Assembly (NCBI GenBank): GCA_003243965.1 | Contig: QHBO01000017.1 | Coordinates: forward strand, 1 to 64,000 | DNA: 64,000 nucleotides | Origin: Chloroflexota bacterium | GTDB taxonomy: Bacteria > Chloroflexota > Limnocylindria > QHBO01 | Reading direction: 5' to 3' | Shown: piece by piece, positions 16,299-55,702 of the stretch | Position numbering within the stretch: position 1 is the first letter of the stretch | Layout: every line of letters starts with the position of its first letter | The notes under the pieces: model-generated | The model's input: only the letters and a program-made list of their open reading frames with translations | Told to the model about the DNA's origin: nothing | Database searches by the model: none | Made by a program: the position numbers and the translations under genes

Positions 16299-16365
16299 TG
16301 GTGGGCGACACTGGACTCGAACCAGTGACCTCTTGCATGTCAAGCGTTTCGGGCTGAGCGCTGTG
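16299..16365 (-). repeat. attachment-site copy: tRNA-Val 3' half plus arm (outermost)
   Basis: 16299-16345 repeats the tRNA-Val sequence from the anticodon stem to the encoded CCA. Seven nt further is the arm CTGAGCGCTGTG (16354-16365). It lacks the conserved 45-bp downstream flank of the other copies, so this is probably the original chromosomal 3' end of the tRNA gene, displaced by later insertions. Confidence 0.85.
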
Positions 16366-16464
16366 CACGAACGTAACAGGCGGCCAAGTCCCAGGACGTG
16401 GCGTAACACGGCGTCATCGTCACGTCGGATCCGTCAGCTCACCATCAACAGTGGGTGGGCCACC

Positions 16465-16913
16465 TTATCGCTCGTCGGCCAGCGAACGGGACCGGAAGGC
16501 GCTGACCTCGTCCAGCGCGGCGCAGATGCGGCTGACCTCGCTCTTGCTGATGCCGGCGATGCCGAGCGTCCCGACCAAGTCCCCCACCCGTCGGGTGCTG
16601 ACCCCGAGCACATAGGCCCCCTCGACCACCGCCAGCAGCGCGCGCTCGGCCCGTCGCCGCGGCTCGGGCAGGCTCGGAAAGTAACTGCATGTCGCGCACG
16701 GGCGGGATCGACGGCGCCAGCGTCCCGACACGGGTGTCCCAGCGTCGGGTCGCGATAGCCGTTGCGGTGGATCAGGCGTCGCTCGGGATTCCGTTCACCC
16801 TTGGGCAGGCCGGCGAGATCGCTGACCTCGGCCTCCATCACCGCCTGCGCCAGCACCCGGACTCCTTCACACAGGAAATCAGCGTCACCATCGGCGATCG
16901 CTGCTGACTCCAC
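16465..16913 (-). pseudogene. IS256-family transposase remnant
   Basis: Pieces of the N-terminal part of an IS256/mutator transposase appear in different frames. One is DADFLCEGVRVLAQAVMEAE with RRLIHRNGYRD. Another is YFPSLPEPRRRAERALLAVV with ISKSEVSRICAALDE. At least two frameshifts separate them, and the catalytic C-terminal half is missing, so it is inactive. Confidence 0.8.
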
Positions 16914-17096
16914 GAAACTCAGGGCACCTCAGAGTCTCCACCGAAATCAGTGCGGTTCACGGCGAGAGGGCTCGACCCGCCAGCACCGACCTTAGCGTCC
17001 GTTCAACACGGCTCCGTTGCGCACTCGTCGGCGCCAATCGCTGGCTCACCCACACAGGGTGAAGCCCGCTGTGACCGCGGGAGCCGGGATGTCGCG

Positions 17097-17624
17097 TCAG
17101 ACTCGATGGAGCTGCCGGCCGGATGAGACTCGGCTGTTTGACTGCCTTGGTCCATTCCGATCGCGAACCACTGAGAGCGACAGCCAAGTCGCATCTGGCA
17201 CGGACCTAACCGTGAGCCCGTCCAAGGTACCGCTCGACTCAACCGCAGCCCAGGATTGCAGGAGAGCATCGATGCCGGTCCCAGGCGGGATTATCGGCGT
17301 CGCGTGCATTAGCTTCAAGAACACCCTGCGGGCGAGGGGCCACCTGGTGTCCGCGGGAACCTGCACAAGCAGATCAACCATGCCCTCGTCGCTCGCCTCA
17401 ACGAGGGCCTGCACCCGGACATCGTCTATCACTCCCCGGCAGGACCACTGCGGGAGGTTGTCCGGCGCGCCTTTACCGAGTGCGGCGCAGTGGACGCGCA
17501 GCGCATCCCAACCCTGCGAGATCGCGGAAACCACTGCTGGTTCGGCCGCCCCTCGCGGTGAACAGCCCGCAAGAAGTGCCGTCGCCACACCAATGCTCGC
17601 CAGCCACCGAGCACGCGGGACCAT
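17097..17624 (-). CDS. putative lipoprotein
   Basis: This protein of about 175 residues has a signal peptide and lipobox (WLASIGVATALLAGC). The mature domain is unrecognised, with two cysteines and a DALRVHCAALG segment. It is the third gene of a minus-strand run with the secreted protein and amidase genes, 60 bp downstream of its neighbour. Start chosen at ATG 17624, directly before the signal peptide. Confidence 0.6.
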   Translation of the reverse strand: MVPRARWLASIGVATALLAGCSPRGAAEPAVVSAISQGWDALRVHCAALGKGAPDNLPQWSCRGVIDDVRVQALVEASDEGMVDLLVQVPADTRWPLARRVFLKLMHATPIIPPGTGIDALLQSWAAVESSGTLDGLTVRSVPDATWLSLSVVRDRNGPRQSNSRVSSGRQLHRV

Positions 17625-17684
17625 CACGATGACCGCGACGAACTGAGACCTTCGCGACCTGTCGCCTCCACGCTCAGTCTCCAA

Positions 17685-18236
17685 CTACGGCTCTGAGCCT
17701 GGCGCAAAGACGAAGGACTCCTGCGTTATGCGCCAGCCTTCTGGCAGGCGGGTCAGTTCAAACGTGAACTCCACGATGTTCGCCGGACGGGACCGCACGA
17801 CCTTGCGTTCTACCACTTGGCCGACGTCAGACCATGTCGTCGCCGTGACCGTCAGCCTCGCGATCGACCCGCTGATCCCAATCTTGCTGAAGGTCAATTT
17901 CGAAACGCCTCCTCCGAAGAATCGAAGTGCTCCGCCCGCCTGCGCTCTCAAGGAGGCATCCAACTGGTCGCTCCGCTGGGTCAGTAGCTCGCCGCTGTAG
18001 ACGCTCCTCAGACGGCCGTTCGCCTTCGTCAGGGCCTCCGGAAGCGCTTGCGGCGAGATGGCTCCATCCGAGGTAGCGCCGAACCCCTGCATCAGGTCCA
18101 TCCGGCTGCGAATGACTGCCTCGATCGCGCGCTGATCGCCAGCTGCCGCTGCGCTAGACGGCACCCAAATACCTGCTATGACGAGACCAATCAAGATGCC
18201 CGCGATACCAAGTCGCCTCCGAGTCCGGTGCGTCAT
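17685..18236 (-). CDS. secreted protein, possible amidase partner
   Basis: The 183-residue protein has a signal peptide (RRLGIAGILIGLVIAGIWV) and a mature domain ending in VEFTFELTRLPEGWRITQE, a cystatin/NTF2-like beta-rich pattern. In some actinobacterial proteins a similar region precedes an Amidase_6 domain on one chain; here the amidase is a separate gene 17 bp upstream. That fission reading is inference. Start chosen at ATG 18236, before the signal peptide. Confidence 0.6.
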   Translation of the reverse strand: MTHRTRRRLGIAGILIGLVIAGIWVPSSAAAAGDQRAIEAVIRSRMDLMQGFGATSDGAISPQALPEALTKANGRLRSVYSGELLTQRSDQLDASLRAQAGGALRFFGGGVSKLTFSKIGISGSIARLTVTATTWSDVGQVVERKVVRSRPANIVEFTFELTRLPEGWRITQESFVFAPGSEP

Positions 18237-18253
18237 CGACGTCTCCGCTTGCA

Positions 18254-18931
18254 TCAGTTGCCTGAGTAGATCCCGACCTTGTAGATCGTGGTCGTTCGCC
18301 ACTGACTGTTGTAGGGTCGCAGCGACCAGAACGCGTGGTAGCGGTTGTTTGTGTGCGCGTCCACCAAGTCGCCGTACCAGCCTTTGTCAGGGTCTGTGCC
18401 GTGTGCGACTTGGATGGCGACGTGATCCTGCGTTCCGTTGCTGTCCCAGTCATAGAAGACCAGGTCGCCTGGTATCAGCCCATCGTTGATATTCGCAGCG
18501 TCGCCGCTATCCGTCCCCGCGAGGAATCCTCCGGGGTAATGCCAGATCTCAAACCAGTACAGATCGTTCGCGACGGACCAAGAGTGCGTGTAGCGGTAGA
18601 AGTGATAGTAGCTGTTGTAGAACACGTACCAGTTGTGATCGTCCGTTGTGCTCCCAGTCGGATAGCCCACTTCTGCATACCCACCGCCCGATTGTAGCGA
18701 GTACGACACGAAGTTGGCGCAATCGTTGCCGCTGCCTGTGAAGCACAGGCGTCCGGTGCACCAATTCGAGCTGAGCACCCACCGGTCAGCGAACGAGGCT
18801 GCACTCACTGGGTTGTATGCGAATGCGCCTGATGCGAAGACGAAGGTCAGGGAGGTGAACAACACCACGCTGACGACGCCCCGGGTCCACCAGCGATAGC
18901 GCTGGACGGCATCGAGCACCAGATCCTTCAC
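18254..18931 (-). CDS. secreted amidase-domain (Amidase_6-like) protein
   Basis: The 225-residue protein has an N-terminal signal/anchor (about 17-38). A papain/NlpC-like Amidase_6 domain follows, with a catalytic-cysteine region GSGNDCANFVSYSLQSGGG, then IPGDLVFYDWDSNGTQDHVAIQ with the likely catalytic His, and a DAHTNNRYH motif. Members are thought to act on cell-wall peptides. It is the first gene of a three-gene operon of exported proteins. GTG start with GGAGG 9 nt upstream. Confidence 0.75.
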   Translation of the reverse strand: MKDLVLDAVQRYRWWTRGVVSVVLFTSLTFVFASGAFAYNPVSAASFADRWVLSSNWCTGRLCFTGSGNDCANFVSYSLQSGGGYAEVGYPTGSTTDDHNWYVFYNSYYHFYRYTHSWSVANDLYWFEIWHYPGGFLAGTDSGDAANINDGLIPGDLVFYDWDSNGTQDHVAIQVAHGTDPDKGWYGDLVDAHTNNRYHAFWSLRPYNSQWRTTTIYKVGIYSGN

Positions 18932-19079
18932 TAGCCCGAACCTCCGCGAGATTCACCCTGACGGCAGTCGCCTCCCGCCGAGTGTGAAGATGTGTCGCCC
19001 GGGCTGGCATCCACCAAGTCTGATGATTCTTCAGCACAGACCTGATGATTCTGAGAGACCCGTGCGGCAGAATCTACCC

Positions 19080-22055
19080 ATGGCACGGCGCGTATCCAGC
19101 CCAGCCCTGGTTGGTCGTAAGAAGGAACTCGAGACACTCGGGACCGCGCTTCGCGGCGCCACCGCGAGCGAAGCCTGTGCGGTCCTCATCACCGGGGAAG
19201 CGGGAATCGGCAAGACTCGGCTGCTCGCGGAGTTCCAGCGCGCGTGTCAGCACGCCACGTTCGCGGTCGGTCACTGTTTGGAACTCGCACCTGGAGAACT
19301 CGCGTTCGCTCCGTGGCTTGAGGCGTTAGCCTCGCTGCCAATTCGCGGCCCGGATGAAACGCTGCCCGCAGACGTCGAGTTCGCCGAGCTGCTGGATTCG
19401 TCAACTACCGCACCTGGACGAGCGGGTCGCCGCCCTGAAACTTCCCGCGCACGCCTGTTCGTCGCCGCGAGACGGCTGCTCCGTGCCGCCGCCATCCAAG
19501 GACCACTGATCATTGCGCTCGAAGACCTCCAGTGGGCCAGCCGGTCGACCATCGAGCTTTTCGAATTCCTCGCGGCCGCTCTCCGCGACGAGCGTATCCT
19601 GCTCCTAGGGACCCTCCGTATTGAGCGTTGGCCGGTCGTTCCGCAGCGGGACGACGTTGAGTCTCTGCTGCGCGAGTTCGAGCATCTCCCCCGATGTGAG
19701 GTCGTGGCCTTGAGTCCCCTCACCGCCAGGGAGAGTCGCGAACTCGTCTCGGCCATCACAGGTGACGCACAGGATCCAGCGGTCATCGAGGGACTGGTCA
19801 ACCGGGGTCATGGCAATCCGCTCTTCATCGAGGAGTTCGCTGCCTTCGTGGCGGCCGGTGGGGAGGGTGTCCCGGAGTCGCTACGTTCTTCCCTCATGGC
19901 GCGCCTCAGAGAGCTGTCACCCGCCGGGCGCCTCGTCCTGGAACTCATGGCAGTGGCGGGCCGATCGGTGCCCTACCGACTGATTGAGTCAGCCAGCGGC
20001 GTCCGGGGGGATGAGCTCGTCGCGGCCGTACGCGACCTGACTTCCCACGCCTTTGTAAGCTCGGACGTAGGCGGTCGAGAGGAGATCGCCCTGCGCCACT
20101 CCCTCGTTGCTGAGACGATCCTGGAGGAGATGTTGCCGATTGAGCGTCGACAGCGGCACGGGCAGCTTGCTGACGCTCTGATAGAGACCGCGACAGGTCT
20201 CCCGACGCCATCGGCCTCTTCAGCGGAACTCGCCCATCACTTAGAAGCCGCCGGTCGATTCGAGGCGGCCCTGTCCGCAGCGATTGTTGCGGGTCGGGCG
20301 GCGTTTCGCACCACGGCACACGCGGAGGCAGACCGCCACTTCGCGGACGCTCTCCGCCTGCGCGAGGCCGTCAGCACCTCTCATTCGGAGGCCGCCGAGG
20401 ACCGCACTCCCCTGCTGATGGAGGCGGCGGAAGCAGCATTCGCGGCTGGAGAGGGCGAGCGAGCAGTGGCCTTGATCCACGCTGCCCTCGACGCCAGCGG
20501 GTCACCTGCCAATCGGCAGATGGAGGGGAGCCTGCGGCGCCGGCTCGGTACCTATCTGCTGTCTGTCCTGCGCGACGACGAGGCGGTCGCCGAATTGCGG
20601 CGGGCGTTAGACCTCATCCCCTCTGAGCCGAGGTCGTCAGAGCGCGCGCGGGCTCTCGGAACACTGGGTGCTGCCCTCATGCTGGGCGGGCGATATCGAG
20701 AGTCACAGCGGCTGTGTGAAGGGGCCTTGGAGGCCGCGCGGTCGGTCGGCGACACGTACCTGGCAGGGCAAGCCCTCAGTTTCCTTGGCGTGGACTTGGT
20801 GAACATCGGGGAGCTCGCCCGAGGCCTGGAGGTGCTCCGCGAGGCAGTGAAGGTCGCCAGGAAGGCGGCCCGAGCGGAGGGCGTCTTCGAAGCGATCATT
20901 AACCTGTCTGAAATGCTAAATCGGACCGATCTGCTGGCTGAGGCGGTCGCCGTCGCCTTGGCAGCCCTGCCGGAGGCGGATGAGGAAGGCCTCACCAGGA
21001 GGATCGGGACCGGTCTGCGCGCAACAGCTGCAGGGGTCCTCATAAGATCGGGGCGCTGGCAGGCGGCCGCCGCCCTTATCAACGAGGGCCTCGCGCTCAT
21101 GGCGACCGGCGAATGGTTGGCCGCTCTGTTGGCTAACCGTGCGAGACTCCACATCAATCATGGCCGGTTTGCAGAAGCCAGAGAAGACGTGGATCGCGCT
21201 ATCGGCGTGGCCCACAGTGAAAGGGTTGATCTATGGCCGGTCCTCGCCGCCGTGGCAGCCGAGCTGAATATCTGGTGCGGGGATCTCCCAGAAGCTCGGG
21301 ACATGGTGCAGCGGGGCCTCGCAGCCTTGACGGACACCGATGCCGATCAACTCCGGAGCCCGCTTCTCGCGGTAGCGGCTCGGATCGAAGCGGACGACGC
21401 TGAGCGCTGCCGGGCGCTGCGTCTGCGGACACCGGCATTGATGGCCGAAATGGCCGCAGAACACCTACGCCAAGCGGCGGGCAAGATCCTCACGAGTGCA
21501 TCGTTGCCGCAGGGCATCCGGGCGGAACTCGCCTGCTGCCGGGCCGAAGCCGCCCGCGCGCTGGGCAAGCCAGATCCGGACCCATGGCATGCCGCCGCCG
21601 GGCTGTGGGGTGCGGTCGGTCAACCATACAACCGAGCTTACGCGCAGTTCCGCGAAGGAGAGGCACTACTCGCTCTGGGAGGTAACCGATCGAGCGCACG
21701 TCAGACACTACGAGAGGCGCTGGGGACGGCCCGCGACCTCGGTGCGATCCCGCTCCAGCAACTTCTCCTTGACTTGGCCAGGCGGGCGCGCCTGGACCTA
21801 ACGCCTCCGCGGCGACCCGAGCCTGTCGCGATGGCTGCCGGCCTCAGCGGCCGGGAGACCGAGGTATTGCGCCTGATCGCGGATGGGCTTACCAACCGTG
21901 GAATCGCGGCTGCCCTCTTCATTTCGGAGGCGACGGTGGCGACGCACGTCTCACACATCCTGCGGAAGCTCGGTGTGGCGTCCCGACTGGAGGCCGGGCG
22001 CGCGGCTCGCCATCTCGTCATCGCAACGCCCGACACGCCCCTTGATCCAAGGTAG
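19080..22055 (+). CDS. LAL/MalT-type LuxR-family regulator with AAA ATPase domain
   Basis: This 991-residue regulator has an N-terminal ATPase domain with Walker A GEAGIGKTR (39-47) and Walker B LIIALEDLQWA. A long helical/TPR region follows. A C-terminal LuxR HTH covers about the last 75 residues (LSGRETEVLRLIADGLTNRGIA, SHILRKLGVASRLEA). Such proteins couple ligand and ATP binding to transcription activation. The ATG at 19080 fits the domain start. It is divergent from the secreted amidase operon (148 bp apart), a plausible but untested target. Confidence 0.88.
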   Translation: MARRVSSPALVGRKKELETLGTALRGATASEACAVLITGEAGIGKTRLLAEFQRACQHATFAVGHCLELAPGELAFAPWLEALASLPIRGPDETLPADVEFAELLDSSTTAPGRAGRRPETSRARLFVAARRLLRAAAIQGPLIIALEDLQWASRSTIELFEFLAAALRDERILLLGTLRIERWPVVPQRDDVESLLREFEHLPRCEVVALSPLTARESRELVSAITGDAQDPAVIEGLVNRGHGNPLFIEEFAAFVAAGGEGVPESLRSSLMARLRELSPAGRLVLELMAVAGRSVPYRLIESASGVRGDELVAAVRDLTSHAFVSSDVGGREEIALRHSLVAETILEEMLPIERRQRHGQLADALIETATGLPTPSASSAELAHHLEAAGRFEAALSAAIVAGRAAFRTTAHAEADRHFADALRLREAVSTSHSEAAEDRTPLLMEAAEAAFAAGEGERAVALIHAALDASGSPANRQMEGSLRRRLGTYLLSVLRDDEAVAELRRALDLIPSEPRSSERARALGTLGAALMLGGRYRESQRLCEGALEAARSVGDTYLAGQALSFLGVDLVNIGELARGLEVLREAVKVARKAARAEGVFEAIINLSEMLNRTDLLAEAVAVALAALPEADEEGLTRRIGTGLRATAAGVLIRSGRWQAAAALINEGLALMATGEWLAALLANRARLHINHGRFAEAREDVDRAIGVAHSERVDLWPVLAAVAAELNIWCGDLPEARDMVQRGLAALTDTDADQLRSPLLAVAARIEADDAERCRALRLRTPALMAEMAAEHLRQAAGKILTSASLPQGIRAELACCRAEAARALGKPDPDPWHAAAGLWGAVGQPYNRAYAQFREGEALLALGGNRSSARQTLREALGTARDLGAIPLQQLLLDLARRARLDLTPPRRPEPVAMAAGLSGRETEVLRLIADGLTNRGIAAALFISEATVATHVSHILRKLGVASRLEAGRAARHLVIATPDTPLDPR

Positions 22056-22267
22056 CCCAGTCGAGTCCTTCCGTTCTCACAGGCCTTCCTCACCGTGAGG
22101 CAAGTGAGGGCGGTTCGGGAGCGGCCGGTCAGTCCCCAGTAGGCCGTGGGGCGTTCGTACCGGTAGCTGGCCTGTCCCTCACCAGCGGCCGCCTTTGGGC
22201 AGCAGCCCAGGCCGCCACAGACGGACGCGTCCTCGACCTCGACAACATCCGCGCCGAAGAGCCTCGT

Positions 22268-22471
22268 GTGTTCGTGGACGGCTGCCTGGGCCGCTGCAAC
22301 ATCCACCTCGGCCGGGCGATGGTCCACCGACAGCCGGGCGGGGCGCTGCTGGAGGCTCTCGGAATCCGTGTCGGTACTGCGAAATCCCGATTGCACCGTT
22401 CACTGGAGGCCCTGCGTAAGGGTTTGATGCGCACGCCAGGCGGAGCCTCCGAGGAGGGATCGCTGCTGTGA
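22268..22471 (+). pseudogene. ECF sigma factor remnant (region 4 end only)
   Basis: The C-terminal 35 residues (ALGIRVGTAKSRLHRSLEALR) match the recognition helix of ECF sigma factors. Upstream the frame has no sigma region 2, so only the 3' end survives. Its stop overlaps the start of the next ORF by GTGA, as in intact sigma/anti-sigma pairs. Confidence 0.65.
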
Positions 22472-22800
22472 GGGGCCATGAAATCCAGTCGCGGCTCGCC
22501 CGCGAATTCAGGCGTCCCGGTCAGCGTCCTCCAGCCGAACTGCTCCCGGCCATCTTGGCGGCCACAGGACGCATCGAGCAGGAACGTCGCTGGACGACGT
22601 GGGTTAGCAACTATCGCCGTCGGGATTCCGCTGGCGGGAATCGGGGTCGCCGTTGCAGCGCTGATCTGGCTGCTAGCAAGCGGGTCCATCGCCCCCGGCA
22701 ACCAGTCCGAGGTCACGCAAACGCCGTTAGGCCACGTCGGCGTTCTTCTCCGGACTGGTTGGGGGCGCCGCGCAACCCGGCTTGCGGAGCCCGGAGGACG
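22468..22800 (+). pseudogene. anti-sigma-like membrane protein remnant
   Basis: A GTG at 22468 overlaps the sigma-remnant stop and opens a frame with PAELLPAILAATGRIEQERR. A +1 shift is then needed to continue into GLATIAVGIPLAGIGVAVA, a membrane helix. The frame break near 22590-22620 and the short tail indicate a decayed anti-sigma factor. Confidence 0.5.
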
Positions 22801-22820
22801 GCGACTCGAACCGGCCGGAT

Positions 22821-23252
22821 TCAGTACCGCGCGCAGAAGGCTGCCTCGAGAGCGGTAGGTCCTGAGACGCTAGCGACGATCGCCCAGCGCCAGCCGGCGA
22901 TGAGCGTCCCGCGCGACTCGTCGGCTGCCGAGGCGCCGTAGCGGCGCAGCATCGCCGGCGAGCGCCAACCGGTCAGGCGATTCAGGTCGCCCTCTCCCCC
23001 ACCGGCACTCATCCACTCGTAGGCGAACGTGTGCCGCAGCTGGTGGGGATGCAGGCCGGCGATGCCCGCCCGCGCGCCGCGTCGGTGCAGCATCTGCATG
23101 ACGCCGTCACCCGAGAGCGGGCCGCGGTAGCCGAGCCACAGCTCGGGGCGCGAGGCGTGCGGATGCGCGCGCCGCAGGCGCAAGTAGCGATCCAGCGCGC
23201 GGGCGGTGCGCTTGCCGTACGGGCAGGCGCGCTCACGGAGCGCTGTAGTCAA
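22821..23252 (-). pseudogene. tyrosine recombinase/integrase, N-terminally truncated
   Basis: The 143-residue fragment has the C-terminal catalytic half of a phage-type integrase: HPHQLRHTFA (H70, R73), GWRS with W96 in the His/Trp position, and the nucleophile in RRY (Y105). The core-binding domain and the first catalytic Arg are missing. It starts about 60 bp from the tRNA-Val att copy at 23310. It is therefore the likely relic of the enzyme that built the array. Confidence 0.75.
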
Positions 23253-23309
23253 CCGGCAGTAGGCATGGCGAAGCAGTTATACGGTCAGATTGAGCGTGGA
23301 GAGGGTGGT

Positions 23310-23376
23310 TAGTGGGCGACACTGGACTCGAACCAGTGACCTCTTGCATGTCAAGCATTTCCGCCGGAGCGCTGTG
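23310..23376 (-). repeat. attachment-site copy: tRNA-Val 3' half plus arm
   Basis: 23310-23357 repeats the tRNA-Val 3' half; the CCA end carries one change. The arm CGGAGCGCTGTG (one mismatch) is at 23365-23376. The 40-45 bp before 23310 repeat the sequence found downstream of the intact tRNA gene. Confidence 0.88.
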
Positions 23377-23644
23377 CTATGAGCGTGGTGGGCCGAGCGA
23401 AGAGGCCTCAGTCATGCGATGACGCACACCCGACATGCCATCGCCTCGAATATGATCGTTGCTGAGGTGCTGTCCCGCGCCCCGTGCAGGCCCACCTCAG
23501 GGCAACGTCTCCATATCGCCCGGCTAGCGGTTCGCCGACACGGTCCTGTCGGCGATGCGCTTCGGGTTCGGCAGTCAGCTCGCTCGAGCAGGCTTGCTGA
23601 GGAGGCGGCCATGCCCACGACCACCTGGTTGAGGCGGTGCGCGA

Positions 23645-25033: not shown

Positions 25034-25172
25034 ATCCCCGACCTCGATGGAGGGCACGATCCGGCCGATCCGAACGGCATCTTTCGGCCACAGGCCCTAA
25101 AGTTAAGGACAGCGAGATCCCCGAAGGGCGATCCAAGGGGGGCGCGGGGCGTGCTCTTGACGTCAAGCGGGT

Positions 25173-25655: not shown

Positions 25656-25664
25656 TGCCGCCGC

Positions 25665-26174: not shown

Positions 26175-26184
26175 GATGCCTGGC

Positions 26185-27030: not shown

Positions 27031-27054
27031 GCGTTCCCCCGCAGGCCTATCGCC

Positions 27055-44574: not shown

Positions 44575-44620
44575 GCGGCGGCCGAACTTGGACAGTTCGG
44601 AGCCACTGAGGGTCGCGGAG

Positions 44621-45834: not shown

Positions 45835-45839
45835 GATCC

Positions 45840-47163: not shown

Positions 47164-47172
47164 CTTGGCCGA

Positions 47173-47874: not shown

Positions 47875-48013
47875 CCGCCGGACGCAATTCTACTGCTGTA
47901 GTCAAGCACTCCGGTAGCGAGCTGTCGTTGCGGTAGTGCATCAGTTTGAGCGGGCACCGGCTTGACCCAGCGCCGTGAGCCGGCGCATGCTTGAGCGGTG
48001 AAGAAAGCAGAAG

Positions 48014-48235
48014 ATGCCCCGCGACGTGAATCAGCGGGCGAAGGCGACCCTGGACCTGTTCACCGGAGAAGCCGAGCTGATCCCTGAACGGGTGAAGGAC
48101 CCTGCGGCCGTCGAGCTGGGGCGTCGCGGCGGACTGAAAGGCGGCAACGCGCGGGCGGCCAAGCTCACCCAGGAGCAGCGGAGCGAGATCGCCCGGAAGG
48201 CTGCTGCGGCGCGGTGGAGTTCGCAGCCGACCTGA
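48014..48235 (+). CDS. small conserved basic protein
   Basis: The 73-residue protein has NQRAKATLDLFTGEAEL at the start and the repeatedly seen ending AVELGRRGGLKGGNARAAKL plus RSEIARKAAAARW. It resembles widespread short DNA-binding-like proteins of unknown role. It lies 3 bp from the end of the toxin gene, tail to tail. Confidence 0.7.
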   Translation: MPRDVNQRAKATLDLFTGEAELIPERVKDPAAVELGRRGGLKGGNARAAKLTQEQRSEIARKAAAARWSSQPT

Positions 48236-48238
48236 AGG

Positions 48239-48508
48239 CTAGGCCAGCTCCACCCACTTGAGGTAGATGTACTGCGCGTCAAACGAGTAGTAGACGCGGA
48301 TGCGCGGCATCCCGGTTCTCGATGGCTCACAGATGACGACCCACAGGTTTTCGTCAACCTGATCGAAGGCGGTCGGATCGCGCGCAAGCCCCCACTCCGC
48401 AGCACGCCAGAACGCATCCCACCGCCTCGCATCGGGGATGATCGAGGCTCGTCCGGCTGCGAATCCTGGCTCTTCTCTGGTGGAGCGGACGGGCTTACAC
48501 CCAGCCAT
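48239..48508 (-). CDS. toxin of a Panacea-type toxin-antitoxin pair (RelE/ParE-like)
   Basis: This 89-residue protein ends WDAFWRAAEWGLARDPTAFD...RIRVYYSFDAQYIYLKWVEL, a short RelE/ParE-like pattern. Its ATG at 48508 overlaps the 3' end of the Panacea antitoxin gene by 14 nt, the normal order for panA-panT pairs. The toxin fold is inferred from length, context and C-terminal pattern. Confidence 0.65.
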   Translation of the reverse strand: MAGCKPVRSTREEPGFAAGRASIIPDARRWDAFWRAAEWGLARDPTAFDQVDENLWVVICEPSRTGMPRIRVYYSFDAQYIYLKWVELA

Positions 48509-49052
48509 TCGACCGGGCCAGTTCCCGGCCTCGCTCGATGTCCCCTTGGGATGCGCGCCCGAGGAACGCCGTCTCATAAGGAATGTTCTCCTCGGCGGAC
48601 GCGAGTTTCCAACCCATGTGCAAGTGAGTCTCCTCGCTCGCGGCGGTGCCAGAGGTGTTGCTCAACGCCTCCAACACTCCATCCACGAATCCTAGTTGCT
48701 CACCTGAGAAGAGCGACGTATCGGCAGACCGTAGCGGCACATATCGATCCATTGGCGTCTCGGCGCCGACATCCTCCTTATCAATACGCAGGATGCCGTC
48801 ACGGATCATCCCGTTCCTCACATCGACTAAGTGGCGCGGCGCTGGACCGAGGGGCAGCTTGAAGTAGGGGTGCCCCGTTATCGGTGCGCCCAGGTGCAGA
48901 TAGGCTCCGAAGTCCGACTTGAACAGAAGCTTGTTCAGCTTGAGAGAGCCCATGTGCGGGTCATCAAGCGATCGCTCGGCGATGTAGAGGATCAGTTCTC
49001 GGAGCTTCCGGTCATCTGCGGCGATGGTCGGTCGAGAGAACGTATGTTCCAT
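48495..49052 (-). CDS. Panacea (DUF4065/SocA-like) domain antitoxin
   Basis: The 185-residue protein has the Panacea signature: LKLNKLLFKSDFGAYLHLGA, then PITGHPYFKLPLGPAPRHLV. Panacea domains act as chaperone-like antitoxins that neutralise diverse toxins encoded next to them. TTAGGAGGA precedes the ATG at 49052, and a TAGAGT -10-like box lies further upstream. First gene of the two-gene operon. Confidence 0.8.
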   Translation of the reverse strand: MEHTFSRPTIAADDRKLRELILYIAERSLDDPHMGSLKLNKLLFKSDFGAYLHLGAPITGHPYFKLPLGPAPRHLVDVRNGMIRDGILRIDKEDVGAETPMDRYVPLRSADTSLFSGEQLGFVDGVLEALSNTSGTAASEETHLHMGWKLASAEENIPYETAFLGRASQGDIERGRELARSNGWV

Positions 49053-49252
49053 ATCAGTCCTCCTAACACGGACTCTAGCACCTTGTCAATAGCCGGACAC
49101 CCATCTCGCAGGCCGATGGATAACCGGGGTCAGTTGAGACCAACTTGCAGAACGGGGGACTCCTCAAGCATCGCGACAGACTGCTGTCACGAGCCTCAAG
49201 CATCATCGCATTATGAACCGACTGAGATCGCGGCGCTGCTCGACTAGGCTGC

Positions 49253-49258
49253 TACTCT
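49253..49258 (+). promoter_or_regulatory. -10 element (TACTCT) of the restriction-modification gene
   Basis: TACTCT ends 7 nt before the GTG at 49266; no ribosome binding site. Confidence 0.45.
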
Positions 49259-49265
49259 CCCCGAC

Positions 49266-50598
49266 GTGGCACCCATCGGCTACCTCGAAACCGGTGTCAT
49301 CTACTGCGACGACAACCTGCACCGCCTGGCGCAGTTCCCGGCTGACTCAGTGGACCTGATCTACTTGGACCCGCCGTTCTTCTCCAACCGTCACTACGAA
49401 GTGATCTGGGGCGACGAGGCCGAGGTCCGGTCATTCGAGGACCGTTTCCAGGGCGGCATCCACGTCTACGTCGAGTGGATGCGGGACCGGCTGATCGAAC
49501 TGCACCGCATCCTCAAGCCGACCGGCTCGATCTATCTCCATTGCGACTGGCACGCAGGCCACTATCTCAAGATCGCGATGGATGACATCTTCGGAAATCG
49601 CCAGTTCCAGAATGAGTTCGTTTGGTACTACAGCGGGGGGGGCTTCGAAGAAGCGATGGGCGCGCAAGCACGACACCATCCTGTACTACACCAAGGGTAA
49701 GAACTGGACATTCAACGTGGATGCCGTCCGAACAGAGCACAAGTGGACGAAAGGCCAGCCGCGAGCTGACGGATCGGAGCGGAGCGTCGAGATCGGCAAG
49801 CTCCCCGATGACGTATGGGAGCACCACGCCGTCATGCCCTGGTCGAAGGAGCGGGCGGGTTACCCGACACAGAAACCCGAGGAGCTGTTGCGGCGGATCA
49901 TCGCCGCCAGCTCGAACCCCGGCGACATTGTGCTTGACCCCTTCGCGGGTTGTGGAACCGCGCTGGTCGCCGCGCATCAGCTCGGCCGTCAGTGGATCGG
50001 CATAGACATTAGCCCGACCGGCGTGAACCTCATGAAGCGCCAGATCCAGCGTCGGGCGGGAGCCGAGAACATCAAGCTCGTCGGGATGCCAGTCACCGAA
50101 GCGCAACTCCGCGAGCTGAAGCCGTTCGAGTTCCAGAACTGGGTCATCGACCGGATGAATGGCTCTGGCTCGCCCCGCAAGTCGGGCGACATGGGCATCG
50201 ACGGCCTGAGCTTCCTGCTCCACGAGCCGATCCAGGTGAAGCAGTCGAGCGGCATCGGGCGCAACGTGGTGGACAACTTCGAGACCGCCGTCAAGCGTAG
50301 CGGACATACGAAGGGCTACATCGTCGCCTTCAGCTTTGGCAAGGGGGCCTATGAGGAAGCGGCTCGGGTGAAGGGTGCAGAGGGAATGGTCATTGAGCTG
50401 TTGACGGTGGCGGACCTGCTCGAAGGCAAGGCCGATCTGGTGACGCCAGAGACCGGGCTGTTCAGTGTGGACCTGCCGATGCCGGAACCCAGAGCGCCCG
50501 AATCGCTCCCCTCTGTCGAGGAGCTGATCGCCAGCGAAACGGGGCAGGAGCTGGGCAGGGTCGCAGAAGCTGAGGAACTCTACGATCCGTCAAACTGA
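49266..50598 (+). CDS. DNA methyltransferase-restriction endonuclease fusion, frameshifted at a poly-G tract
   Basis: The N-terminal frame (49266-49700) holds motif IV YLDPPFF and ends NEFVWYYSGGG. The continuation is in another frame: ASKKRWARKHDTILYYTKGK, SAM motif I DPFAGCGTALVAAHQLGRQW, then a C-terminal Mrr/PD-(D/E)XK-like nuclease (MGIDG, PIQVKQS, DNFETAVKR). The break is at a run of eight G (49635-49642); seven or ten would restore a single protein of about 443 residues. Either phase variation by slippage or a recent inactivating indel. Likely an N6-adenine or N4-cytosine type enzyme. Confidence 0.8.
49635..49642 (+). repeat. poly-G tract (G8) inside the methyltransferase gene
   Basis: Eight consecutive G immediately after AGC codon sequence, exactly where the reading frame breaks. 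Homopolymers of this kind are typical slippage sites. Confidence 0.85.
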
Positions 50599-50761
50599 TG
50601 CACTACCGTCGTTGCTCCGTGAATCTTTCAGGTGACGGTAGGGTCGAGAGCTGGCGCGGTGGCGCTGTGCAGCGGTAGGCCCGGCGCAATCCTCGTGGGT
50701 TTCCCCACGAGTGCCCAGTTCCGGTAGCCATGGCCACGCGCCGGTTTCCAGCTCCCGCCCG

Positions 50762-50796
50762 TCGAACCGTGCATGCGGTTCTCCCGCACACGGCTC
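50762..50796 (-). ncRNA. group II intron domain V
   Basis: On the minus strand the sequence begins GAGCCGTGTGCGG, has a GAGA (GNRA) loop and closes with ACCGCATGCACGGTTC. This is the conserved domain V hairpin that carries the catalytic core of group II introns. It overlaps the maturase stop codon. Confidence 0.75.
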
Positions 50797-51360
50797 ACCG
50801 ACGTCCTTCACCGCCGGCATTCGGCTTGGCCCGCCAGCCCCAGTTGGGGCGGGGTGCGACGACGTATCCGTTGAGGTTGATCAGACCCAGGCGATCCGGC
50901 GAGCCGTGGACCACCGCCCACCAGCCATAGCGGGCCGACCGCTTGTGGCGCTTCGCCACAAAGCCGGCCAGCCGCCGCGTCGCGTAGGTCATGATCTGGT
51001 CGAAGCGGCGGGCCGAGTTCCCGTAGCGGAAGTAGCCCGCCCAGCCGCGCAGGAAACGATTCACGTCTCCGCTGACGACCTCGACCGGCAGCAGCAGCCG
51101 CTCGCGTGCCGTGAGAGCACGGATACGATCGCGGGCGTGCTGCCTGGCCTGGCGCGAGGGCCAACGCGCGAGGAAGGCGATGTAGCGGCTCCCGAGACGA
51201 TGGACCCGCAGCCAGCGGTGCTCGAAGCCGAGGAAGTCGAATCCCTCGCCTCCTTCCCGCAGCCCGACGATCCGCGTCTTGGCCTCCTTCGGCGCCAGGC
51301 CGAGCTCGGCCAGCAAGCAACGGAGCGCAGTCAGGCTGCGCTCCGCCTCCGGCGCTGGGT
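50795..51360 (-). pseudogene. ltrA: group II intron reverse transcriptase/maturase, C-terminal part
   Basis: About 185 residues matching the end of LtrA-type proteins: GLAPKEAKTRIVGLREGGEG (thumb), FDFLGFEHRW, then the maturase domain VNRFLRGWAGYFRYGNSARR and LAGFVAKRHKR. The RT palm with its YADD box is absent. The open frame continues into the tRNA gene, which is an artefact. Confidence 0.8.
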
Positions 51361-51405
51361 AGCGCAAAGCAGTTATACGGTCAGAGTGAGCGTGAAATGG
51401 GTGGT

Positions 51406-51482
51406 TGGTGGGCGACACTGGACTCGAACCAGTGACCTCTTGCATGTCAAGCAAGTGCTCTAACCAGCTGAGCTAGCCGCCC
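51406..51482 (-). tRNA. tRNA-Val (anticodon GAC)
   Basis: A 77-nt gene with complete cloverleaf: acceptor GGGCGGC/GTCGCCC, D arm AGCTCAGCTGGTTAGAGC, anticodon stem CTTGC/GCAAG with loop TTGACAT (anticodon GAC), T arm with TTCGAGT, and an encoded CCA. It is the only intact copy in the window and the target of the island array on both sides. Confidence 0.95.
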
Positions 51483-51852
51483 ATCGATTCTGCCAATTTC
51501 GTGCTCAGACTGGCCACATGCCTATTCGACAACGTGTTCTGCTGAGCAGGTCATCGATCCTACCAGAAACCCACCGCTGAGCACGAATCCTGGGCCCACA
51601 GCGCTCAAGACGCATTCCAAGCCACATAACTGTACGAGTTTGCCGATCCCCCACGACGCGCAGCGCTCGCGACTCGGGCGGTCCGGTTGCAGAGTCACAC
51701 TTGTGCTCTCCCCGGTAAGCCACATGCCTGTTGGCAATGTGCTCATATGAGCAGACGGACGATCGCCGGGGGGCCAGGGTGGCGCCATGGGCGAGCGCCT
51801 CGCGGCTGGGCTGGGGGCGTATGCCCCCATTCCCTACCGGTAGCCGGGCGGG

Positions 51853-52263
51853 TCACGGAAGGAGACCCACCTGCTTGTACAGGCCGAACATGTCGACCAC
51901 GTTCCAGTGTTCGGACATCTTCCCGGCGACGACCCGGTACATGTCGATCCCTCGCATCGTGAACGCCCGACCCGTGGCCTGGAGGCCAAGGAACTCGCCG
52001 CGATGAAGGGCCGAATGGCTCCATCGAACCACGACCATGTCGCGCTCAGCGATCATGTCGTGCACCGTCCAGTGGGGATCGAACGCATCGAACAGGTATT
52101 CGACCCGCTGTTTGAGCCCGTTGCGTCCAGGTCCCTGCTCCGGAAAGGCGGCGTGGTCGAGGTAGTCCTCGGCTACGATCAGGTCCAGCGCCGCCACGTC
52201 CCGGCTGTTGAGGATGTCCTCCTTGTAGCGTCGGATAACGGCCCTATTGATTTCGATGCTCAT
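51853..52263 (-). CDS. SnoaL-like ester cyclase family protein
   Basis: The 136-residue NTF2/SnoaL-like protein has the start INRAVIRRYKEDILNSRDVA, the YLDHAAFPEQGPG segment, and an ending GKMSEHWNVVDMFGLYKQVG typical of the family, including the EHW signature. Family members are polyketide cyclases or unknown small-molecule enzymes. Same direction as its paralogue, 31 bp downstream of it. Confidence 0.82.
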   Translation of the reverse strand: MSIEINRAVIRRYKEDILNSRDVAALDLIVAEDYLDHAAFPEQGPGRNGLKQRVEYLFDAFDPHWTVHDMIAERDMVVVRWSHSALHRGEFLGLQATGRAFTMRGIDMYRVVAGKMSEHWNVVDMFGLYKQVGLLP

Positions 52264-52294
52264 GACGCCCTCCGCGGAACCGACGTGCTGCCGG

Positions 52295-52729
52295 CTAGGC
52301 GCCGGCGGTTTCAGGCTGCGGGATCAGACCGAGCTGCTGCATCTGCGCCAGCTGGTCGACCACGTGCCAGTGCTCGGCGAGCTTGCCGCCGCGCAGTCCA
52401 TGGATGTCGATGCCGGCGATGCCGAACTCCTTGCCCGTGGCTGGCATGCCCATGAAGCCACCGCTGTCGATGCCGGCGTTGGTCCAGCGGACCGCTACCT
52501 TGTCGCCCTCGGCGATGACGTCCTCGATGGTGAAGTGCAGCGGGTTGAAGGCGCCGCAAAGTCCGGCGACTCGGGCCTTCAGGTCGGCGAGCCCGTTGCC
52601 CTGGCCAGGAAACGGATCGTGCTCGACGTAGTCCTCGACCGCGAGCTCGTCGAGCAGGTCCATGTTGCGCTGGTTGAGAACCTCATCGTAGTAGCGGCGG
52701 ACGACCGCCTTGTTGTCCTGTTCCGACAT
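52295..52729 (-). CDS. SnoaL-like ester cyclase family protein (paralogue)
   Basis: The 144-residue protein is closely related to the downstream gene (NKAVVRRYYDEVLNQRNMDL, VEHDPFPGQGNG, KLAEHWHVVDQLAQMQQLGL). The pair probably arose by tandem duplication. It is divergent from the XRE/NB-ARC regulator (150 bp), which may control the pair. AGGAAG precedes the ATG. Confidence 0.82.
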   Translation of the reverse strand: MSEQDNKAVVRRYYDEVLNQRNMDLLDELAVEDYVEHDPFPGQGNGLADLKARVAGLCGAFNPLHFTIEDVIAEGDKVAVRWTNAGIDSGGFMGMPATGKEFGIAGIDIHGLRGGKLAEHWHVVDQLAQMQQLGLIPQPETAGA

Positions 52730-52879
52730 GACGCTTCCTCTTCCTTACTGTGTTCGTGATGTACCCACCTTCGGCGAGTTACCCGCGGATCGCCACCACG
52801 TCTACCCACCGTCCGTCCACCGACTTGCCGCACTGGTCGTGGTAGCGAAGCTACGACCACGCGCGATGGAAGCTCAAGC

Positions 52880-55216
52880 TTGAGCAGTTCGGCGACGGGG
52901 TTCGGAGCTCGGGTCCGGAAGTTGCGCGTTGCGGCAGGCTTGACCCAGGCCGAGCTGGCGGAGCAGGCGGGCATCAGCGAACGCACCGTCAGCGACCTGG
53001 AGCGCGGGCTGCGACGCACGGTCTACCCGGCTACCGCGCGCCAGCTGGCTGCCTCTCTGGGAGTGGGCAGCACCGACCTCCCGGCCTTTCTGTCTGAAGC
53101 TCGGAGCCGATCTGACGTCGCCGCAGACGCGCACGATGAGATTGTTGCGATTCCCGGCGCGTACAGAGCCCGCGTCCCGGCCCCTGTGACGGCGCTGCTT
53201 GGGCGTGAGTCGGAGCTCGCCGCCACATTGGCGATGGTCCGTGACCCCGATGTGCGACTGCTCACGCTGGTGGGCCCGGGCGGGATCGGCAAGACGCGCC
53301 TGGCCACGGAGGTCGCAAACCTGGTCCGGGATGACTTCGCGGGCGGCGTGCACTTCGTCGGTCTCTCCGCCATCGACGACCCGGACATCGTGCCCGCGAC
53401 GATCGCTGGTGCGGTCGGGCTGGCGGGCGTGGGTGCGAGCCTGTCAGAGGCTCTGGCGCAACGGCTGGGTCAGGCCGAGGCGTTGCTCGTGCTGGACACG
53501 TTCGAGCACCTCCTGCCGGCGGGTTCCGTGATCGGCGAATTGCTTGCGCTGTGCCCGGGCCTCACGGCGCTCGTCACCAGCCGCACGCCGCTCCACCTTC
53601 TCGGAGAGCGGCAGGTTCCCGTCCAGCCCTTGGCCGTCCGCACTGAGGCCGGCGAGTCCGTCTTGCCGCCAGCGGTGGCGCTCTTCCTCGAGCGCGCTGC
53701 GGCAGTAGACCCCGATTTCAAGCTCACGCACGATGCTCGCGAGGTCGTCACGTCCATCTGCTCGCGATTGGACGGCCTGCCGTTGGCGATCGAGCTGGCT
53801 GCAGCCAGGGTCAGGCACATGCCGCTCGCCACACTGCGCACCCAGCTTGACTATCGCCTCGAAGCCCTGGTCGGAGGTGCCCGTGACCTGCCCCCGCGAC
53901 AGCAGACGATGCGAGCCACGATGGACTGGAGCTACACGCTGCTTGGCGCGGCCGAAATGCGGCTGTTCCGCAGCCTGGCTGCCTTTCGGGGCGGTTTCGG
54001 GACCGATGCCGCCGCCGCCATGATCCAGACCGTCGAGCCCCCGGGCACACCCGATGTCATGCCGGCCCTGAGCGCGCTGGTCGACGCCAGCCTGGTGATG
54101 CTGGCTCCGGGTTCATCGGAGGAAGGGCGCTACCGGATGCTCGACGTGACCCGCGACTACGCCGTCGAGCGATCAGTCGCGGCACGCGAGTTCGAGGGCC
54201 TCCGGCGGCGCCACGCCGACTTCTTCCTCGTCCTCGCCGAACGGGCCGAGCCGGAGCTGCGTGGGGCCAAGCAACGAGATTGGTATACCCGCCTCTTCGC
54301 TGATGAGGGGAACTTTCGCGCGGCAATGACATGGGCCCTCGCGGCGGGCGAATTCGACCTCGGACTCCGGATGGCTGGAGCCCTCTGGATGTTCTGGCGT
54401 TGGGCCGGCCTGTTCGCAGAAGGTCGGGCATGGCTGGAAGCGGCCCTCGCCGTCAGTCCCGCCTCACCGCTCGAGGTCCGTTGCCAGGGCCTGTGGGGCG
54501 CTGGCTGGCTCGCTTACCACCAGGGCGACTACCGACGCACCGGCGAGGTGGGCGCACAGATGCTGAGCGAGCTCGGTGAAGGCGGCTACGACCTGCAACG
54601 CCGCAATGCGCACACCCTGGTCGGGAATGCAGCCCTCGGCGAGGGTCGTGATAAGGAAGCCATCGAAGCACTGTGCGAAGCCGTCGCTCTCACGCAGTCG
54701 CCGGAGGGCACATGGCACCAGGCGACGTCGTCGCTGAACCTGGGCACCGCGCAGATGCATGCTGGCCAGGTGGCCGCGGCGAGGGAACTCTTCGAGCGCG
54801 CGCTGACCATCTATCAGGAGCTCGGTGACCGCCACTTCCTCGCCCGCACGCTGATCCAGGTCGGCTACGCGGAGCTTCTGGCCTCAGGTCCCGTCAACGC
54901 GGCACCCGCGATCGCGCGCGCCATGGAGATCGTGGCCGAAATCGGTGATGGTTGGGGGATCGCCGAAGGCCTGGAGGCTGTCGCGACCCTGCGGTCTATC
55001 AGCCAGCCACGATCAACCGTACTATTGGCAGCCGCGGCTGCTCATCTGCGGGAGCGGATCTCCATGCGTCAGCACGCCGCCGATGCCGTCATCAACCGGA
55101 TGTACCTGGATCGGGCCCGGAAGAGCCTGACCGCCGAAGCCATTGCCGAGACCTGGCGGGAAGGGCACGCGATGACGCTAGCTGAGGCTCTCGCCGAGGC
55201 CCAGGCGATCGATTGA
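52880..55216 (+). CDS. XRE HTH regulator with NB-ARC-type ATPase and TPR domain
   Basis: This 778-residue protein has an N-terminal XRE HTH (about 8-62: LRVAAGLTQAELAEQAGISE), an AAA/NB-ARC module with Walker A GPGGIGKTR (132-140) and GLPLAIELAAARVR, then TPR repeats (ALCEAVALTQSPEGTWHQA). This is the AfsR/SARP-like or BTAD-less signalling ATPase layout. TTG start at 52880 directly before the HTH. Divergent from the SnoaL pair. Confidence 0.85.
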   Translation: MSSSATGFGARVRKLRVAAGLTQAELAEQAGISERTVSDLERGLRRTVYPATARQLAASLGVGSTDLPAFLSEARSRSDVAADAHDEIVAIPGAYRARVPAPVTALLGRESELAATLAMVRDPDVRLLTLVGPGGIGKTRLATEVANLVRDDFAGGVHFVGLSAIDDPDIVPATIAGAVGLAGVGASLSEALAQRLGQAEALLVLDTFEHLLPAGSVIGELLALCPGLTALVTSRTPLHLLGERQVPVQPLAVRTEAGESVLPPAVALFLERAAAVDPDFKLTHDAREVVTSICSRLDGLPLAIELAAARVRHMPLATLRTQLDYRLEALVGGARDLPPRQQTMRATMDWSYTLLGAAEMRLFRSLAAFRGGFGTDAAAAMIQTVEPPGTPDVMPALSALVDASLVMLAPGSSEEGRYRMLDVTRDYAVERSVAAREFEGLRRRHADFFLVLAERAEPELRGAKQRDWYTRLFADEGNFRAAMTWALAAGEFDLGLRMAGALWMFWRWAGLFAEGRAWLEAALAVSPASPLEVRCQGLWGAGWLAYHQGDYRRTGEVGAQMLSELGEGGYDLQRRNAHTLVGNAALGEGRDKEAIEALCEAVALTQSPEGTWHQATSSLNLGTAQMHAGQVAAARELFERALTIYQELGDRHFLARTLIQVGYAELLASGPVNAAPAIARAMEIVAEIGDGWGIAEGLEAVATLRSISQPRSTVLLAAAAAHLRERISMRQHAADAVINRMYLDRARKSLTAEAIAETWREGHAMTLAEALAEAQAID

Positions 55217-55400
55217 GCATGCTGCCGGCTGTCCCGGCGCCTCCTGTCGTGTCTGGCCTCTCGGCAGCCACATCGACAAGCCCCGGAATCCGGTGACGGG
55301 AGCCCGGCTCGTCGGCTGACCATGAGTGGCCACTGCCGCTGGCGGCGTGACATCACAATCGATCGGCGCCGGGTCGTTCGGGACGCCTCACCGATCGGAG

Positions 55401-55651
55401 CACAGCGCTCGCCCGACGCGAGCGTGATTGCTCTCTGACCACAGCGCTCTCAGTCCGCTTGCGTTTCAACCGCACCAGGGCACTATCTCGGCGAGCCATC
55501 GGTGCGAAATGGTCTCCGCGAAGGACGTCAGATGCTCCGAAAGGTCGAGATTAGCCTTCTCGGCCGTTACAGCGCTTCGACCCCATCGCGCCTAGGACAT
55601 ATAAACTATGTCGATTACGTTCGCTCCCCCACTCGGGGCGGCACAGCGCTC
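55401..55651 (+). repeat. repeated CACAGCGCTC arm-type motifs
   Basis: Exact 10-mers lie at 55401-55410, 55440-55449 and 55642-55651. Further copies are at 55812-55821, 51597-51606 and 44117-44126. The 55642 copy extends to the full 12-bp arm next to the tRNA 5' half. Candidate recombinase arm-binding sites. Confidence 0.55.
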
Positions 55652-55702
55652 AGCCTCGGATGCATGTCAAGCAAGTGCTCTAACCAGCTGAGCTAGCCGC
55701 CC
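55642..55702 (-). repeat. attachment-site copy: orphan tRNA-Val 5' half plus inverted arm
   Basis: 55661-55702 is the 5' half of tRNA-Val (acceptor strand through anticodon loop). On its left, 7 nt away, is CACAGCGCTCAG (55642-55653), the exact reverse complement of the arm beside the 3' halves. The half gene cannot fold as a tRNA. Confidence 0.88.

Follow-up and report, generated by a model that had tools for sequence, protein, structure and literature searches.

The window analysed here is the whole of a 64,000-nucleotide stretch from a Chloroflexota bacterium (assembly GCA_003243965.1, contig QHBO01000017.1, positions 1 to 64,000). It contains a single intact tRNA gene, a leftwards-reading tRNA-Val(GAC) predicted by ARAGORN at 51406–51482, and partial copies of this gene form an array on either side of it. 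BLAST searches of the whole genome (2.2 Mb in 48 contigs) identify four orphan 3′ halves of tRNA-Val to the left of the intact gene and in the same orientation (with starts at 16289, 23284, 29605 and 38536 when flanks are included; 93–96% identity over 57–74 bp), and a fifth orphan, a 5′ half with 100% identity, to its right at 55661–55702. The halves are joined to a conserved sequence of ~69 bp, referred to here as the arm, and tRNA half plus arm constitute the attachment (att) sites. The array is thus two-sided, with at least five units at one tRNA-Val gene. The att sites and the one integrase gene are as follows, with bit scores to the arm model R1 described below.

16299..16379, minus strand: outermost orphan 3′ half (16299–16345) with a degraded arm to ~16379
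22824..23276, minus strand: C-terminal half of a Xer-like tyrosine integrase that ends at an att site (Pfam PF00589, 3.4e-10; positions 187–296 of ~307 in the family hidden Markov model, HMM)
23268..23424, minus strand: att repeat 2, outer flank with CAGTTATACGG, 3′ half (23310–23356) and arm (23357–23424; 66 bits)
29589..29745, minus strand: att repeat 3, 3′ half (29631–29677) and arm (29678–29745; 73.6 bits)
38520..38676, minus strand: att repeat 4, 3′ half (38562–38608) and arm (38609–38676; 61.9 bits)
44075..44132, minus strand: extra arm inside unit E4 (40.7 bits) with a core-like TGCGTGTCAACC and without a recognisable tRNA half
51364..51482, minus strand: intact tRNA-Val(GAC) (51406–51482) with an element-type 3′ flank (CAGTTATACGG at 51370)
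55597..55702, minus strand: mirror att site, arm (55597–55655) joined to the orphan 5′ half (55661–55702)

In a complete mismatch scan the 3′ halves starting at 16299, 23310, 29631 and 38562 differ from the intact gene at 0, 1, 0 and 0 of 42 nt, and the 5′ half (55661–55702) at none of 36 nt; no additional tRNA-Val half is present in the window when up to nine mismatches are allowed. The BLAST E-values of the five orphans range from 1.5e-15 to 8.6e-29, and chance is therefore no serious alternative. Four further matches in the same genome are at 79–84% identity, two of them on contig C15 (intact tRNA-Ile and tRNA-Ala genes) and the others on C45 and C31. The original prediction, made from the sequence alone, had described the four 3′ halves and counted at least four cassettes. 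The halves are all confirmed; the count was too low, as the 5′ half and with it the second side of the array had been missed.

When the window repeats are aligned, tRNA identity ends at a core around TGCATGTCAAGC in the anticodon loop. The arm follows the core in all four 3′ repeats and includes CTGAGCGCTGTGC or a one-mismatch form of it; the outermost arm is degraded, with R1 matching only 16347–16379 (14.7 bits). To the left of the 5′ half CTGAGCGCTGTGC is found on the opposite strand, with an exact 13-bp copy at 55641–55653. This 13-mer is not rare by itself (10 matches at ≤2 mismatches, 4.9 expected), and the case for a shared arm therefore rests on the longer sequence. An outer flank of ~45 bp is common to the repeats at 23310, 29631 and 38562 and to the intact gene. 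Its absence only at 16299 is expected if the outermost orphan keeps the host flank, and the sequence there is probably the original host 3′ flank. Both the common arm and the flank before all but the outermost repeat had been noticed earlier and are upheld here. Elsewhere, an outer-flank motif, TTGAGCGTGAA (≤2 mismatches), is enriched but not universal, occurring at 20 of 73 sites and in 32 of 3000 controls.

A sequence-only model of the arm, R1, was built from 18 aligned arms at tRNA-Val sites (33 were collected, and 12 divergent or odd ones and three near-duplicates were dropped); the three inner window arms are members of this alignment. A 172-bp att query had matched 102 of 121 genomes, with many matches covering the tRNA part only, and a 90-bp arm query 12 of 177 genomes of the class. 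At E≤0.01 R1 matches 55 of these 177 genomes, including 18 of 53 of good quality, and 28 of 46 genera. R1 also matches 24 of 400 genomes drawn from the phylum (E≤0.001), and 14 of the 24 are from outside the class. An exact arm pattern recovers only metagenome-assembled genomes (MAGs) named Chloroflexi bacterium from genome_contigs (11 of 11 named stretches), and nothing from the IMG/VR viral contigs. In a genome of another family (G102, loci L056 and L057; G, C and L numbers denote genomes, contigs and loci) the arm is 98% identical to that of the window over 90 bp, which could reflect either recent transfer or MAG contamination. When folded as DNA, six arms show no attC-like folding (z of −1.26 to +1.35 relative to shuffles), and a duplex attP is therefore likelier than an attC-like hairpin. 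Repeats of GAGCG and CAGTTATnCG may be binding sites for the integrase.

A central test concerned the position of the arm relative to tRNA genes. The matches tested were the 83 of the 137 listed that lie in stretches already fetched; a match passed if its 60 immediately preceding bases gave an alignment to a tRNA half that scored 17 or more, a threshold set once the scores were known. A tRNA half, cut at the anticodon loop, lies directly upstream of the arm in 75 of the 83, compared with 35 of 3000 random positions in the fetched loci. The arm is therefore dispersed, but not as an unrelated repeat family scattered through the genomes would be. Only 33 of the 75 halves are of tRNA-Val. The other 42 include Thr-CGT (12), Arg-TCG (10), Gly-TCC (9), Gly-CCC (3), His-GTG (2), Met-CAT (2) and Arg-TCT (1), and three weaker halves (scores 21–22) that align to Lys(TTT) or Met and to Ala(TGC), and are probably two Lys and one Ala (Lys-CTT and Ala-GGC as assigned by eye). 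An arm learned from Val sites only is thus found on halves of at least eight isoacceptors, and for Val, Gly-TCC and Thr both 5′ and 3′ halves occur. Of 26 listed matches from beyond the class, 21 were tested and 14 pass (70 bases upstream, with a tRNA panel from the class). A single bin, G019, has arms on halves of Val, Arg, Met, His and probably Lys. Among four listed matches inspected outside this test, two have a half (G011:C5:2852 and G011:C65:14160). In the genome of the window (G000), locus L165 of contig C12 carries a decayed tRNA-Arg 5′ half with a decayed arm at 3065–3150, and a second arm without a half at 3848–3902; both are ~15 kb from a tRNA-Arg gene with an adjacent integrase.

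Tandem sites recur in other genomes, at tRNA-Arg (five in G017, three in G019, three orphans in G008, two in G011), tRNA-Gly (three in G002, three with a half in G077), tRNA-Thr (three by R1 in G098) and tRNA-Val (four in G013, three 5′ halves in G063, two in G049). A hand-picked survey of 39 units with both ends present, including those of the window, gives a median length of 3257 bp (range 94 to 12913); the window units are 4.2–12.8 kb, and several elsewhere are only 1.4–1.9 kb. Most units contain one to about five genes (crude gene caller, eight loci). The family HMM detects an intact integrase in one unit (G112), a fragment in three (window E1, G017, G084) and nothing in the other 35. One of the 39, unit c of G098, contains a further Thr 3′ half and is really two units. 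Two small features were seen within arrays: in G098 (L129, G098:C154) this further Thr 3′ half (four mismatches) and a 5′ half, at 12506 and 14102 and both missed by R1, with the 5′ half 330 bp from the intact tRNA-Thr gene, and in G013 (L039, G013:C141, 2500–2750) two att sites 138 bp apart, apparently an empty cassette or a deletion product.

Of 20 selected cargo proteins scanned with Pfam, five are without a match. Six have adenylate-cyclase domains (two of these with NTPase and TPR parts), and a STAND regulator, a sensor kinase, a transporter, oxidoreductases and glycosyltransferases are also represented. Adenylate-cyclase cargo recurs at different tRNAs (L115, L119, L125, L129 and L039).

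Two comparisons show a tRNA gene with different contents in related genomes. The genes flanking tRNA-Val in G006 are 3.5 kb apart with no orphan half between them, and the same genes are ~59.6 kb apart in the genome of the window, which provides the empty site that the original prediction had proposed to look for. The right-hand neighbours of the G006 locus resume only near C17:71633, where C17 is the contig of the window. The ~16 kb beyond the 5′ half (C17:55703–71633, being window 55703–64000 plus L108:1–7633) is also absent from the syntenic G006 locus; a complete mismatch scan finds no Val half in the window part, and R1 finds no arm in L108. The second comparison is within one genus, to which G008 and G011 both belong. 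Their tRNA-Arg(TCG) host flanks match at 79–86% over stretches of 1.2–4.9 kb, whereas the three units of G008 and the two units plus a 3′-side insertion of G011 have almost only att DNA in common (blastn, E≤1e-10, >80 bp). Beyond this, the two integrase genes align over 280 bp (69%), and a G008 unit aligns with the G011 3′-side insertion, on the opposite strand, over 268 bp (72%). Cassettes have thus turned over at the same tRNA-Arg gene between congeners.

The integrase remnant of unit E1 lies directly left of the second att repeat and is the sole integrase found in the window, as first reported. Among six loci with relatives of this fragment, the genes are close to tRNA-Lys and tRNA-Arg in the same genome, to tRNA-His in G011 and to tRNA-Leu in G008, and another is beside an orphan Arg half in G008. 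A further integrase in G112 adjoins tRNA-Val, and genes of the family are mostly beside tRNAs or tRNA halves in these genomes. Three intact members scanned with Pfam have PF00589 and SAM-like N-terminal domains and no other domain. In NCBIfam four integrases fall near XerC/XerD yet far under the cut-offs (best 156 versus 335 bits). They are not IntI: with both TIGR02249 and NF011946 run, four full-length relatives score 29.5 to 68.5 bits on TIGR02249 (cut-off 265). The closest solved relative that bears a recombinase name is XerD (1a0p); the label of the top match, 9i5v_14, looks wrong for a recombinase.

Integrase-bearing units of G008 and G112 are laid out alike, as arm, cargo, integrase and tRNA half, with the integrase N-terminus toward the tRNA, and the E1 remnant is at the same unit end. 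The G112 tRNA-Val unit has an intact integrase and a divergent arm missed by R1. The G008 tRNA-Arg unit, which spans two loci and is outside the 39, has a frameshifted integrase and a weak R1 arm (14.6 bits), and is next to two units without an integrase. In G011 an intact integrase of 328 aa lies beside tRNA-His, and a His 5′ half with an R1 arm (20.4 bits) is on another contig. IMG/VR holds 20 loci with integrases that are 43–52% identical, and 2 of 12 scanned have a tRNA directly beside the integrase; on contigs L145 and L164 such relatives (50–52% identity) are directly beside tRNA-Met and tRNA-Arg.

Two other readings were considered and rejected. For a phage origin, IMG/VR lacks the exact arm pattern and has no convincing arm in the 20 integrase loci (best E 0.011). 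The C-terminal half that ends at an att site had also raised the prospect of a split integrase of the Sulfolobus spindle-shaped virus (SSV) type, with attP inside the integrase gene; this was dropped because no N-terminal half was seen at the other end of E1, as judged by reading the six-frame translation with no profile run, and because deletion is a simpler account of the decay.

We interpret the array as probably the product of repeated site-specific integration, by Xer-like integrases, of mostly integrase-less elements whose att site is a tRNA half plus the arm. This draws on the att sites themselves, their occurrence on both halves and at many tRNAs, the integrase-bearing units of the same layout and the cassette turnover between congeners. 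A Xer-like tyrosine integrase would recombine the core of the element with the anticodon loop of the chromosomal tRNA gene. The element's own half would restore the gene and the old half would be displaced to the far end of the element, such that elements with a 3′ half stack downstream and those with a 5′ half stack upstream. Because each insertion would rebuild an intact tRNA, the site would stay open and elements could accumulate. Both halves may be usable because the anticodon stem-loop is an inverted repeat and looks alike from both sides. Integrase-less units would probably have been moved in trans by the integrase of a related element or have lost their own; mobilisation in trans is plausible, and the elements presumably pass through circular intermediates and may be active today. 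Repeated integration at one attB was part of the original prediction, and the conserved att sites, the empty G006 locus and the differing congener cassettes all support it, but its scope was too narrow, since insertion occurs in both directions and at tRNAs of at least eight isoacceptors.

Several observations weigh against this interpretation. Eight of the 83 tested arm matches have no tRNA half, including that at 44075–44132 in the window, and neither do two of the four inspected separately (G000:C12:29847 and G011:C31:11948). At one of the six integrase loci (G011:C39) a 14-kb stretch is free of tRNA genes. Four of the ten genomes that were scanned (G063, G077, G006 and G017) yield just two PF00589 proteins each at E≤1e-5, and because both score like the host XerC/XerD, which by sequence they appear to be, these genomes show no intact element integrase. 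All of the genomes are draft assemblies, with G019 listed at 6% contamination, and G102, the strongest cross-family case, could be binning contamination.

The order of insertion also fits imperfectly. The newest element was originally proposed to be next to the tRNA, and insertion at that position is likely from the mechanism. Mismatches of the halves to the intact gene, read from near to far, follow this clearly in two arrays only, G013 (0, 5, 5, 6) and G011 tRNA-Arg (0, 4). G098 is mixed (Thr 3′ halves 4, 0, 0, 2), G063 is very slightly reversed (1, 1, 0), and G008 tRNA-Arg (0, 0, 0), G049 (0, 0) and the 3′ halves of the window (0, 0, 1, 0) are flat or nearly so.

The alternative that survives best, with a chance only a little short of even, is plain accretion, in which each island arrived with its own integrase and lost it after landing, leaving stranded cis-mobilisable remnants and requiring no trans system. 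Decayed integrases are at the expected end in window E1, G084, G017 unit e, G102 and G008 tRNA-Arg, and some array-bearing genomes show no intact element integrase, as noted above. Units E2–E5 have no integrase by the family HMM, are flanked by att sites and are stacked at one site, as in accretion of cis-mobilisable elements (CIMEs); the Pfam matches of their scanned open reading frames (ORFs) include no transfer domains, although no dedicated search for transfer genes was made. The same account has been proposed for those 15 of the 31 ssrA islands of Dehalococcoides that lack an integration module (PMC3146451, in excerpt). However, 35 of the 39 units have no trace of an integrase, and several single-gene units of ~1.5–2.8 kb (G063, G013; crude gene caller) have little room for a lost one. 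The three inner window arms also remain near the consensus despite there being no intact integrase in the window, with the qualification that these arms are themselves in the R1 alignment.

An active platform, with integrases resident in a genome that move integrase-free cassettes from array to array within it, is unlikely. The presence in a single genome (G019, the bin listed at 6% contamination) of arms joined to halves of several tRNAs, full-length integrases in some of these genomes and the match of a Val-built model to arms at other tRNAs are what it would predict. Integrons likewise stack small integrase-less cassettes at a fixed site, and to that extent the earlier description of the array as a slow integron holds as an analogy. 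It goes no further, as there is no IntI, no foldable attC in six arms and no integrase in 35 of 39 units; here the dock is a tRNA gene and the integrase is mostly away from the array. Furthermore, no cassette is shared in the one array pair compared in full (G008/G011 tRNA-Arg), although other arrays may share some, and the four genomes with only two, host-like, PF00589 proteins show no integrase that would do the shuffling.

It is much less probable still that positions 16.3–55.7 kb are one ~39-kb two-ended element with a symmetrical attP and its own complete tRNA-Val, into which the inner repeats came later. The outermost halves on the two sides (3′ at 16299, 5′ at 55661) do carry exact inverted copies of CTGAGCGCTGTGC, and the intact tRNA lies between them. 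But at G063 and G049 tRNA-Val and G008 tRNA-Arg, where both sides of the tRNA are covered, there are only 5′ halves, and in such one-sided arrays each unit carries a half and not a whole tRNA; G013, with 3′ halves only, is not counted because just 53 bp of its contig follow the tRNA. An artefact of assembly, or a tandem duplication through homologous recombination, is scarcely credible: 150-bp repeats do break metagenome assemblies, and an att site is at or close to the end of several G019 contigs, but the arm is found again in separately assembled genomes from 28 genera, some arrays are internal to long contigs (192,758 bp for C17 and 1,047,031 bp for G008:C4) and the cargo differs in each window unit.

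Parallels in the literature are considered here from excerpts of the papers cited. The Dehalococcoides ssrA islands are in the same phylum and are tandem with direct repeats of an RNA-gene end, but use a serine recombinase, DsiB, and a single target, the tmRNA gene, at its T-loop with 3′ end repeats (PMC3146451); here a tyrosine integrase, many tRNAs, the anticodon loop, both halves and a shared 69-bp arm are involved. The integrases scanned are PF00589 tyrosine recombinases, unlike DsiB, with no separate search made for serine recombinases. Among Islander islands the crossover is centred on the anticodon in 2083 of 3919, four tandems have three or more islands and 5′ fragments occur in 159 of 3919; an island is defined by its integrase and a length of 2–200 kb (PMC4383910). 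As in those islands, an intact tRNA gene is accompanied by displaced fragments in the same orientation, 3′ fragments downstream and 5′ fragments upstream, but 35 of 39 units lack an integrase trace, 5′ arrays recur, and the window has a fragment only, in one of its five units. Additive flexible genomic islands target tRNAs with variable cassettes and have 3′ tRNA-end repeats, and the excerpts describe no arm shared across different tRNAs (PMC4119200, PMC10872708). Arrays of tyrosine-integrase elements are mentioned in passing (PMC6563490). Tycheposons carry cargo at several tRNA genes with a XerD-like tyrosine recombinase (via PMC10872708), whereas the units here are small and mostly without a recombinase, as compared by description only. 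Phages with tRNA-dependent lysogeny use a tyrosine integrase and a crossover in the anticodon region, but they supply a complete tRNA, and the host gene is not rebuilt (PMC10865867); the units here end in a half that completes the gene, although the window alone could be read otherwise. One arm common to many tRNAs and to both halves, in units that mostly lack an integrase, is a combination not found in these accounts, and the titles and abstract openings searched describe no shared arm across tRNAs in Chloroflexota, which is weak evidence of absence.

More tentatively, and with the balance somewhat against it, the arrays may represent a phylum-wide analogue of integrons built on tRNA genes, in which a Xer-like integrase family recognises the arm, one arm plus a half of any of at least eight tRNAs docks at the matching anticodon loop on either side of the gene, and cassettes, each with one or a few genes, are mobile despite carrying no integrase. 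If so, tRNA genes would constitute a distributed gene-capture platform with many parallel capture sites per cell, which would help to explain the gain and loss of regulators, enzymes and transporters in uncultured soil Chloroflexota. A modular att site, with a constant arm and a swappable tRNA half, would make a change of integrase target tRNA directly testable, and methods such as Islander that need an integrase per island would miss most such units.

The cargo of the window, assigned by Pfam scans of selected ORFs, is as follows.

16346..23267: unit E1, 6.9 kb, with an amidase-like protein, a LuxR/MalT-type ATPase regulator and the decayed integrase at the tRNA-side end
23357..29588: unit E2, 6.2 kb, with glucose-6-phosphate dehydrogenase, a MauE-like protein and a glycosyltransferase fused to a sigma-70-like part
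29678..38519: unit E3, 8.8 kb, with an MT-A70 fragment, pterin dehydratase, a methyltransferase, ABC transport parts, and GH1-like and GH43 proteins
38609..51363: unit E4, 12.8 kb and perhaps two units, with Imm5-like, glycosyltransferase, RibD_C, glyoxalase, AhpC/TSA, MauE and SocA-like proteins, a DNA methylase-Mrr protein and a group II intron remnant
51483..55655: unit E5, 4.2 kb, on the 5′ side, with two SnoaL-like proteins and an HTH-NTPase-TPR regulator

The cargo is unrelated from unit to unit, with no common backbone, as the original prediction had stated: Pfam assignments differ, and a self-BLAST of the window (blastn, E≤1e-8, ≥100 bp) recovers nothing except the att regions and one duplication within E3, in the GH1-like region (34322–34771 and 37179–37631; 458 bp, 71% identical). 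E4 may be two units or contain a decayed mirror site, given the extra arm at 44075–44132. An Rfam match to the end of a group II intron RNA (RF00029, 41.7 bits) and part of a maturase/reverse transcriptase lie just left of the intact tRNA-Val, at 50718–51454 on the minus strand. PADLOC searches of ten cargo proteins identify the DNA methylase of E4 and a Pycsar-cyclase match (2.4e-13) for the L125 cyclase, with weak CARF-type (E1) and HTH/capH (E5) matches and none for the remaining six. The DNA methylase with its Mrr-like domain (49582–50598) is near a SocA/Panacea-like protein (48495–49052), and the pair is possibly defence or toxin-antitoxin cargo.

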